Assembly (NCBI GenBank): GCA_017438265.1
Contig: JAFRVZ010000059.1
Span: 1-48,256 of the forward strand
Direction of reading: 5' to 3'
DNA from: Bacteroidales bacterium
GTDB lineage: Bacteria; Bacteroidota; Bacteroidia; Bacteroidales; UBA932
Length of the DNA stretch: 48,256 nucleotides
Below, piece after piece: positions 9,292 to 29,751 of the stretch (its first letter is position 1; every line of letters begins with the position of its first letter). The notes under the pieces are model-generated. The model worked only from the letters and a program-made list of their open reading frames with translations, was not told where the DNA came from and searched no databases. A program made the translations under genes and the position numbers.

Positions 9292-9364
9292 GACTCGTTA
9301 GCTCAGTTGGTAGAGCATCACACTTTTAATGTGGGGGTCTCGGGTTCGAGCCCCGAACGGGTCA
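9292..9364 (+). tRNA. tRNA-Lys (anticodon TTT)
   Basis: A complete 73-nt cloverleaf. The acceptor arms GACTCGT and ACGGGTC pair with one G-T wobble, the D arm is GCTC/GAGC, the anticodon stem TCACA/TGTGG encloses loop CTTTTAA with anticodon TTT, and the T arm is TCGGG/CCCGA with TTCGAGC. Discriminator A; the CCA end is not encoded. It reads AAA and AAG. Confidence 0.95.
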
Positions 9365-9380
9365 CGTGAATTGAAATTCT

Positions 9381-9453
9381 GCACCCCTAGCTCAGCTGGT
9401 AGAGCAACTGACTCTTAATCAGTGGGTCTAGGGTTCGAATCCCTAGGGGTGCA
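9381..9453 (+). tRNA. tRNA-Lys (anticodon CTT)
   Basis: A complete 73-nt cloverleaf 16 bp after the first tRNA. Acceptor GCACCCC/GGGGTGC, D arm GCTC/GAGC, anticodon stem ACTGA/TCAGT around loop CTCTTAA (anticodon CTT), T arm TAGGG/CCCTA. Discriminator A, no encoded CCA. It reads AAG only, useful in a GC-rich genome. Co-transcribed with the TTT tRNA. Confidence 0.95.
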
Positions 9454-25567: not shown

Positions 25568-27889
<2,322 letters not shown>

Positions 27890-27918: not shown

Positions 27919-27926
27919 TATCTTTG
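27919..27926 (+). promoter_or_regulatory. -7 box for the queuosine operon
   Basis: TATCTTTG, exact consensus. The mRNA is expected to start around 27930, directly before the hairpin and riboswitch. Confidence 0.65.
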
Positions 27927-27932
27927 CGGCGA

Positions 27933-27953
27933 GGTCGGCCCGGAGGGCCGGCC
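27933..27953 (+). other. GC-rich 5' hairpin abutting the riboswitch
   Basis: GGTCGGCCC and GGGCCGGCC pair over 9 bp (one G-U) around loop GGA. It occupies the predicted 5' end of the mRNA and ends at the base before the aptamer; a protective or insulating role is possible. Confidence 0.7.
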
Positions 27954-27987
27954 AAGTGTAACAGGTACCACTCTAAAAACTGCAAGG
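27954..27987 (+). promoter_or_regulatory. preQ1-I riboswitch
   Basis: A 34-nt aptamer controlling the queuosine genes. P1 is AAGUG/CACUC (first pair open). The 10-nt loop UAACAGGUAC has the U, CAG and AC expected of the Thermoanaerobacter (type II) aptamer, including the C that binds preQ1. The 14-nt A-rich tail UAAAAACUGCAAGG can form the H-type pseudoknot: CAG in the loop with CUG in the tail. Every segment length equals that of the characterised 34-nt aptamer. The tail's AAGG is 1 nt from the ATG of the transporter, so preQ1 binding would hide the start region (translational control). Confidence 0.85.
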
Positions 27988-27988
27988 A

Positions 27989-28666
27989 ATGAACAAGAAA
28001 GTTTCTGCCAACTTCATGGTGATGGCGGTGGTGTTCACCGTCTGCCTGATCACCTCCAATCTGTTTGCGAGCAAGATCATCTCCGTCTTCGGGGTCAACC
28101 TTCCCGGGGCGGTAATCGTGTTCCCGGTTTCGTATATCCTGAACGACTGCATCGCGGAGGTCTGGGGCTTCCGCAAGGCGCGGATCGTCATCTGGCTTGC
28201 GTTCCTGATGAATTTCATGGTCGTGCTGCTGGGACAGCTGGTCGTCTGGCTGCCGGCGGCGGACTTCTGGGACGGGGCCGAACACTTCAACTATATGTTC
28301 ACGCTGGCGCCGCGGGTCGCGTTTGCCTCGCTGCTGGCTTTCGTGGTCGGCTCGAACGTGAACGCGTGGGTGATGAGCCGGATGAAGGTCGCCTCCGGGG
28401 GACGCCGCTTCTGGCTGCGCGCCGTCGTCTCCTCGCTCGCCGGCGAGGGGGCGGATTCGCTGATCTTCATGCCGATTGCCTTCTGGGGGACGCCGCTGGC
28501 CGCGCTCGGGACGATGATGCTGGCGCAGGTGACCTTCAAGGTCTGCTACGAGATCATCGTGCTGCCGATGACGAGCCGGATCGTGCGGCACGTGAAACAG
28601 GCCGAAGGGGTCGACGTCTTCGACCGCAACATTTCGTATAACCCGTTTAAGATTACTGATATATAA
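27989..28666 (+). CDS. Queuosine-precursor transporter, YhhQ/VUT family
   Basis: A 225-residue membrane protein with about six helices. The start [20 protein letters not shown] and the [17 protein letters not shown] segment are characteristic of the YhhQ family, which takes up queuosine precursors such as preQ0/preQ1. The [16 protein letters not shown] segment is also conserved. A preQ1-I riboswitch in its leader and queF directly after it support this role. The stop TAA shares its last base with the queF ATG (TAATG), so queF is translationally coupled. Salvage rather than synthesis is suggested, as no queC/D/E lies nearby. Confidence 0.92.
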
Positions 28667-29127
28667 TGGACGAGAATCGCAAGGCCGAGGGCCTGAAGGC
28701 CCTGGGGCGGGAGACGGAATACCGCCAGACCTATGATCCCGGCGTGCTCGAGGCGTTCGAGAACCGCCATCCCGGGAACGACTACTGGGTGCGTTTCAAC
28801 TGCCCGGAATTCACGGCGCTCTGCCCGATCACGGGCCAGCCGGATTTCGCGGAAATCCGCATCAGCTACATTCCGGACCGCCGGATGGTCGAGAGCAAGA
28901 GCCTGAAGCTGTACCTGTTCAGCTTCCGCAACCACGGCGCTTTCCACGAGGACTGCGTCAACATCATCATGAAGGACCTGATCGCGCTGATGGACCCGCG
29001 GTACATCGAAGTGACGGGCTTCTTCCTGCCGCGCGGCGGCATCAGCATCCACCCGTACGCCAACTACGGCCGCCCGGGGACGCGCTACGAAGAACTGGCA
29101 TTCAAACGTCTATCAGAAAGGGAATAG
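28666..29127 (+). CDS. queF: NADPH-dependent 7-cyano-7-deazaguanine reductase
   Basis: Reduces preQ0 to preQ1 in queuosine synthesis. It is a short, unimodular (YkvM-type) QueF of 153 residues. The catalytic Cys53 is in [13 protein letters not shown]; the QueF motif ESKSLKLY is at 76-83; [10 protein letters not shown] contributes the substrate-binding Glu and His. Together with the riboswitch and transporter this gives a three-part preQ0/preQ1 salvage and control unit: import, reduction, product sensing. Confidence 0.96.
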
Positions 29128-29172: not shown

Positions 29173-29751
29173 ATGATGCGTTTCTGGGAAGTACTGCTTG
29201 TTGCGTTCGCGCTGGCGATGGACTGCTTCACGGTCTCGGCCGTGAGCGGGGTCATCCAGCGGAAGGTGCGCCGGGGGACCCTGTTGCGGATGGCGCTGCT
29301 GTTCGGCCTGTTCCAGGCGCTGATGCCCCTGCTGGGCTGGGTCGCCATCTATTATTTCCGCCACAGCGTCGAAGCGTATGACCACTGGATCGCGTTCGCG
29401 ATGCTCGCTTTCATCGGAGTCAAGATGATCCGGGACGCGTTCGCGCCGGAGGAGGAGAAGCAACTCAGCCCGGAGAAGCTGCGCACGCAGCTGGCGCTGG
29501 CTGTCGCGACGAGCATCGACGCGCTCGCCGTAGGGATTTCGATGGGCTGTTCCGGCTACGCGACCCTCTCCTCGCTGCTGCTGCCGCTGGCGGTTATCGG
29601 GCTCGTGTCGTTCCTGATGAGCATCGCCGGAACCCTGCTGGGCGTGCGCTTCGGGGAGGCCGTCGCACGCCGCTGGAAGCCGGAACTCGCAGGCGGTGTC
29701 ATTTTAATCGCCATCGGTGTCAAAATCCTCCTGGAACATCTCCTCGGCTGA
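29173..29751 (+). CDS. mntP: Manganese efflux pump MntP
   Basis: A 192-residue inner-membrane protein with six helices in two three-helix repeats. Each repeat has its conserved Asp: LAMDCFTVSAVSG in the first half and TSIDALAVGISMG in the second, the DUF204/MntP signature. It exports Mn2+. It starts 45 bp after queF with no promoter seen, so may be read from the queuosine promoter. ATG at 29173 is followed by a second ATG at 29176. No Mn-sensing yybP-ykoY element is visible. Confidence 0.93.
   Translation: MMRFWEVLLVAFALAMDCFTVSAVSGVIQRKVRRGTLLRMALLFGLFQALMPLLGWVAIYYFRHSVEAYDHWIAFAMLAFIGVKMIRDAFAPEEEKQLSPEKLRTQLALAVATSIDALAVGISMGCSGYATLSSLLLPLAVIGLVSFLMSIAGTLLGVRFGEAVARRWKPELAGGVILIAIGVKILLEHLLG

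Follow-up and report, generated by a model that had tools for sequence, protein, structure and literature searches.

A probable type II-like preQ1-I riboswitch with an abutting 5' hairpin ahead of queuosine salvage genes in Bacteroidales

The leader of a queuosine precursor transporter gene, yhhQ, in a Bacteroidales genome raises the question of whether a metabolite-sensing RNA lies there, to which known class it would belong, and how it might act in bacteria reported to lack Shine-Dalgarno (SD) sequences. The window considered here is the whole stretch of DNA analysed, 48,256 nt of contig JAFRVZ010000059.1 (assembly GCA_017438265.1). Within it, yhhQ is preceded by a 99-nt intergenic gap, at the other side of which a beta-glucosidase/xylosidase-like gene ends at 27889; several NCBIfam glycosidase models match this neighbour, every one below its cut-off. 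The same strand carries, 3' of queF, a gene for an MntP-like manganese efflux pump (29173-29751; NF008546, 93.2 bits, below the cut-off of 214), and two neighbouring tRNA genes at 9292-9364 and 9381-9453 both appear by eye to be lysine tRNAs (anticodons UUU and CUU). The gap itself is ordered as a box of the TAnnTTTG kind (the -7 consensus of Bacteroidota as given in PMC7366714), six bases, a hairpin, one A, the putative aptamer, CAAGGA and the AUG (Table 1). We read this leader, with a probability of roughly 0.8, as a class I, type II-like preQ1 riboswitch acting on the translation of yhhQ and, by coupling, on that of queF.

Table 1. Features of the yhhQ leader and of the two genes that follow it in the window
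Feature	Position	Strand	Basis
-7 promoter box TATCTTTG, Bacteroidota TAnnTTTG type	27919..27926	+	read from sequence
5' hairpin, 9 bp, 3-nt GGA loop	27933..27953	+	fold; 6 nt after -7 box, 1 nt before P1
P1 5' strand AGUG	27955..27958	+	pairs with 27969-27972; AU/CG and UA/AU double changes among relatives
Aptamer loop UAACAGGUAC, 10 nt, U first, AC last	27959..27968	+	compared with type II features of review
L1 U (U27959); predicted preQ1-specificity cytosine of type II AC motif (C27968)	27959; 27968	+	sequence reading
P2 5' strand CAG	27962..27964	+	covaries with 27980-27982
P1 3' strand CACU	27969..27972	+	pairs with 27955-27958
A-rich L3 CUAAAAA	27973..27979	+	A run before P2 3' strand is a parser requirement
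P2 3' strand CUG	27980..27982	+	ends 6 nt before ATG at 27989
yhhQ, queuosine precursor transporter	27989..28666	+	TIGR00697, 118.8 bits, cut-off 50.95
queF, preQ1 synthase (preQ0 reductase)	28666..29127	+	TIGR03139, 171.4 bits, cut-off 86.9

Positions 27955-27982 can be drawn as an H-type pseudoknot, six bases 5' of the yhhQ ATG, bearing the hallmarks of class I, type II preQ1 riboswitches; the RNA reads AGUG-UAACAGGUAC-CACU-CUAAAAA-CUG-CAAGGA-AUG. The sequence-only reading had described a 10-nt loop with a U, a CAG and a terminal AC, a CAG/CUG pseudoknot pairing, and an A-rich tail directly before yhhQ with queF next, and each of these is borne out, both gene products lying above their model cut-offs. 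The loop of the type II riboswitch of Thermoanaerobacter tengcongensis (Tte) is likewise 10 nt long. The same reading had counted a 5-nt P1 arm, but P1 has 4 bp, because a fifth pair would be an A27954-C27973 mismatch; this outer position is paired in only 10 of 57 aligned relatives. The tail ending in CAAGG is indeed present in the window, but it lies outside P2 and is not common to the family. Folded as a single sequence, the window element is unremarkable (z -1.67; 13 of 200 shuffles fold equally well) and says little, so that conservation and covariation in relatives have to decide whether the structure is real.

We collected 110 yhhQ loci, 30 from the window's family (the window included) and the best 80 of 468, retaining duplicates such as L004 and L049. 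A strict parser demanded a 4-bp P1, a U after it, AC before the return strand, an A run and a C, and found the element directly 5' of yhhQ in 99 of the 110 loci, the window and duplicates being counted. The parser itself imposed the U, AC, A run and next C, whose invariance is therefore by construction; the counts are not independent, since most yhhQ-bearing loci are related. Five further loci show the element by eye (L012, L015, L016, L105 and L107), and it is absent from the remaining six of the 110 (L007, L019, L020, L022, L027 and L029). Among these leaders, L012, L015 and L016 have a longer P1 and tail; L105 and L107 have, by eye, an apparent hairpin insertion in the loop, placed after the P2 5' strand and before the ACC running into P1; and L019 holds a degenerate look-alike.

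Pairs were counted in 57 of 68 unique cores; in a first alignment of all 68 the long-L1 group was misaligned. The 11 rows left out (L018, L063, L064, L066, L067, L072, L080, L092, L097, L100 and L101) comprise two with a 5-bp Watson-Crick P2 (L066 and L067) and nine of the A-A mismatch kind. The covariation score of the 57 aligned cores is 0.305, as against 0.101 +/- 0.012 in shuffles, none of 500 reaching the observed value, and at most 0.047 when partners are slid. Two measures that count pairs or pair types give no excess over shuffles in the same cores. Covariation of P1 in orthologous yhhQ leaders had been put forward as a check on the structure; double compensatory changes occur in these 57 cores not only in P1 but in P2 as well. 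The P2 pairs seen are CAG/CUG, CUUG/CAAG, CUAG/CUAG and CAAG/CUUG, together with CACAG/CUGUG and UUCAG/CUGAA from rows outside the alignment.

A wider set of 135 leaders was what remained of 145 parsed elements once 10 had been removed, either as duplicates or because too little sequence lay upstream; L133 (the same site as L017), L162, L163 and L181 (no queuosine gene) and L169 (unparsed) had been excluded beforehand. In 90 of these leaders P2 has at least 4 bp; 28, like the window, have 3 bp, 15 have a P2 broken by a single A-A mismatch, and in two P2 lacks support, so that it is supported in 133 of 135 if the 15 with a mismatch are included. In L004/L049 and L086 the core is intact but pairing between the loop and the P2 3' strand has been lost; these may be decaying copies. 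Judged by how relatives conserve it and covary in it, the element is real and exceeds what chance would give.

A covariance model, R1, was built from the aligned elements, the window and G005 (at least two of the 49 order sites below) being in the model. On the window's own genome it gives one strong site, the window element, itself in the model. It matches at least 43 of the 295 genomes sampled from the window's order and at least 5 of 296 sampled phylum-wide, two of these five probably by chance; these are lower bounds, as at most 24 candidates per genome were scored and the filters were strict. One genome, G022, which carries the long-P1 variant L015, goes unmatched. The 49 sites in the order lie before yhhQ in 40 cases (the window among them), before queC in eight and before neither in one (L181), so that 48 of 49 are linked to a queuosine gene. 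At all eight queC sites the QueC protein scores above the TIGR00364 cut-off, and six genomes (G501, G546, G562, G605, G697 and G727) have one copy before yhhQ and another before queC. In 80 named loci, yhhQ is immediately followed by queF in 55, by queC in 20 and by neither within the examined flank in five. Three matches, the two weakest in the phylum sample (L162 and L163) and L181 in the order, have no queuosine gene downstream and were taken as chance.

Covariation, together with the association with yhhQ and queC, two queuosine genes unrelated to each other, thus supports the sequence-only proposal that a leader of the preQ1-I type, abutted on its 5' side by a hairpin, precedes an operon for queuosine salvage. 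That association also bears on the idea that the element is a translational operator for a regulatory protein, with no metabolite-binding RNA involved. None of our computations separates ligand binding from protein binding, which leaves some room for such an operator; a type II preQ1 pseudoknot before two unrelated queuosine genes would, however, be a very specific coincidence, and we consider the operator highly improbable.

How the element relates to known preQ1 riboswitches was approached through the Rfam PreQ1 model (RF00522) and through the structural types of the class. A match to the Rfam model had been suggested as a check, and none was obtained for the window: nothing was reported for the element at E-values up to 10, nor anywhere in its own genome (0 matches), in the loci of seven relatives, or for the queC element of L149. 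On short stretches around L164 and L069 the model scores 11.3 and 12.2 bits, far from its gathering cut-off of 39 bits, and is there the best of 4227 families by E-value. None of the 11 elements tested (the window, the seven loci, L164, L069 and L149) reaches the cut-off, and annotation that relies on Rfam would therefore miss the Bacteroidales switch. Across the phylum sample, with 20 candidates scored per genome, RF00522 exceeds its cut-off in one of 296 genomes, a figure that shows rarity in the phylum, since the sample holds few genomes of the window's order. That sole match is L111 (G255:C120:37309-37353), at 50.7 bits.

Type II is described in a 2024 review of preQ1 riboswitches by the AC before the P1 return strand (PMC11625349), and by this description the Bacteroidales element looks like type II. 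It shares with type II members such as those of Tte and Bacillus subtilis the H-type pseudoknot of P1 and P2, with covariation in both helices, the AC directly before the P1 3' strand, the L1 U and the A-rich L3 (present in the window, and parser requirements in the 99 of 110 yhhQ loci that pass), a G-C pair closing P2, the linkage to queuosine biosynthesis or transport genes and, as reported for Tte and proposed here, control of translation. It departs from type II in its 4-bp P1, in a P2 that is fully Watson-Crick in many members, in the lack of an SD-like 4-mer in most leaders, in the 5' hairpin that abuts P1 in about half of them, and in not being reported by RF00522. Type I would have UC before the P1 3' strand and UU atop the P1 5' strand, whereas the window has AC, and U followed by A. 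Type III, the E. coli yhhQ leader, resembles our element in preceding yhhQ, in the AC at the specificity base and in control of translation (here a proposal). It buries an AAGG Shine-Dalgarno sequence in P2 and has a pyrimidine-rich loop (PMC11625349), unlike the window, where the P2 3' strand is CUG, the loop is UAACAGGUAC, and AAGGA lies outside P2, touching the ATG.

The best reading of these marks is a Bacteroidales variant of the known preQ1-I class. The presence of that class in the phylum, which had been thought unusual, is not new, as the review places both types I and II of class I in Bacteroidota (PMC11625349). Our literature search found no description of the element in Bacteroidales; the alignments of the McCown 2014 survey may already contain some. 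The regulons described in PMC6593275 name TPP, FMN, THF and B12 riboswitches and not preQ1, and the main text of the B. thetaiotaomicron transcriptome study, with its classification by Rfam homology, gives three TPP riboswitches and no preQ1 (PMC7366714). PMC6593275 and a further paper, PMC10570037, both mention preQ1 and the phylum or order, the latter having the word 'riboswitch' only in its reference list.

The gene content of the window's own genome, an assembly 88% complete, fits a route in which YhhQ would import preQ0, QueF would reduce it and preQ1 would serve as the feedback signal: tgt is present, and the best QueC match, at 20.4 bits, is far under the cut-off of 150.3. Such a pattern fits preQ0 salvage, absence from an incomplete assembly being weak evidence. 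It is conceivable that the same fold senses another ligand, either preQ0 itself, which is both the imported substrate and the product of QueC, or another queuosine intermediate. The importer and the preQ0 synthase would both be under its control, YhhQ reportedly imports preQ0 in preference to preQ1, the Tte type II switch prefers preQ1 by 17-fold only (both PMC10622847), and RF00522 scores very low or is absent. Every known class I type nevertheless binds preQ1 (PMC11625349), and the pocket, as far as sequence reveals it, has the marks of type II; we regard a ligand other than preQ1 as improbable.

A 9-bp hairpin stacked against the aptamer had also been noted from the letters; it is borne out at 27933-27953, and an abutting stem recurs in the leaders of relatives. 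In 40 unique leaders with an A before AGTG, the preceding 21 nt pair as 9+3+9 in 65.6% of cells, compared with 49.1% after halves have been exchanged between leaders (highest value 57.5% in 1000 exchanges) and at most 44.4% when the frame is slid. Of the 135 leaders, 71 have a stem of at least 5 bp that ends 0-2 nt before P1; 20 shuffles gave 14 on average and never more than 25. These hairpin counts are inflated by related sequences. In relatives the position and the pairing are kept while the sequence varies, a pattern that tells against reading the inverted repeat, which lies at the predicted start site, as a DNA operator. A generic 5' hairpin of promoters in these genomes is a related possibility, in that 29 of 131 other TAnnTTTG sites carry a stem, about 19% being expected from shuffled letters. 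Stems are commoner in element leaders, being found near the box in 28 of the 41 that have a strict TAnnTTTG box (odds ratio 7.6), and in 20 of these 41 the stem starts 6 nt after it. On this comparison the generic promoter hairpin is disfavoured, and an operator or generic hairpin is, taken together, quite improbable.

In the window the hairpin is predicted to be 5'-terminal on the mRNA or only a few nt from that end. Of the 97 leaders with their own box (relaxed to T[A/C]nnTTTG) 62 have the hairpin, as do one of nine that follow prfA, four of nine that follow other ORF ends and four of 20 of unassigned context, and by these counts it is associated more closely with the mRNA 5' terminus than with the aptamer; the prfA group consists of close relatives and may represent a single event. 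A closer bond with the aptamer is imaginable, in which the hairpin is a P0 helix stacked under a P1 of only 4 bp and stabilising it, and in many leaders it does end 0 or 1 nt before P1. The core, however, passes the same parser in the prfA-linked leaders, nearly all of which lack the hairpin, and 35 of the 97 own-box leaders are also without a stem by our threshold, so that a P0 helix seems unlikely, if not strikingly so. The hairpin is most likely an mRNA 5'-end element, giving protection from 5'-end-dependent decay or acting as an insulator, and not an obligate part of the aptamer.

The prfA-linked leaders also inform the level at which control would be exerted. In nine leaders ahead of yhhQ (L054, L056, L071, L073, L084, L087, L088, L089 and L091) the aptamer lies within 45 nt of the end of prfA, the distance being about 10 nt in five of six loci inspected, the prfA identity of the L073 copy resting on a TIGR00019 score above cut-off. 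An aptamer so closely 3' of prfA argues for translational, not transcriptional, control there. Distances to the start codon are similarly short: with a P2 3' strand taken to be 4 nt long, the interval from its end to the first ATG is 0-6 nt in 129 of the 135 leaders. The other six are L014 and L061, with a GTG or TTG start close by, and four of the eight queC leaders (L137, L140, L151 and L168), in which the start codon lies about 100-200 nt past the element. At that distance direct occlusion cannot act and a different expression platform must operate, and these four leaders speak against one uniform mechanism.

Bacteroidetes are described as lacking SD sequences, and in Flavobacterium johnsoniae adenines are favoured at -3, -6, -12 and -13, with low structure from -20 to +20 (PMC6847099). 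An SD-like 4-mer lies between P2 and the ATG in 22 of 129 leaders, and the P2 3' strands of the 135 leaders are mostly CAAG, CUGC/CUGU or CUAG; the AAGGA of the window touches the ATG and so is probably too close for an SD role. The switch seems to work mostly without the usual ribosome-binding site, and, given the reported absence of SD usage in Bacteroidota, it probably hides an A-rich initiation region instead. The A run of L3 in the window stands at -14 to -10 relative to the ATG, and together with the reported preference for A and for low structure this makes it a natural reading that ligand binding structures the initiation region. Were preQ1 plentiful, it would pair with C27968 between P1 and P2, stabilise P2 and dock the A-rich tail into P1; structure would then extend from about -34 to -7 and the 30S subunit could not load. 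Were preQ1 scarce, the tail would be a free A-rich stretch, and the transporter and reductase would be made.

A stronger form of this proposal, that the Bacteroidales elements are a distinct preQ1-I subtype with a non-SD platform, in which docking of the ligand conceals the A-rich initiation tract and a 5'-terminal hairpin of variable sequence occurs mostly where the aptamer heads the mRNA, is offered tentatively, at a little under even odds. If it is true, the subtype would be a worked example of a riboswitch class rebuilt for ribosomes that do not use SD pairing. Confirmation of the switch would, in turn, provide a small model for riboswitch control of translation without Shine-Dalgarno sequences and would show how rumen and gut Bacteroidales regulate their salvage of queuosine precursors.
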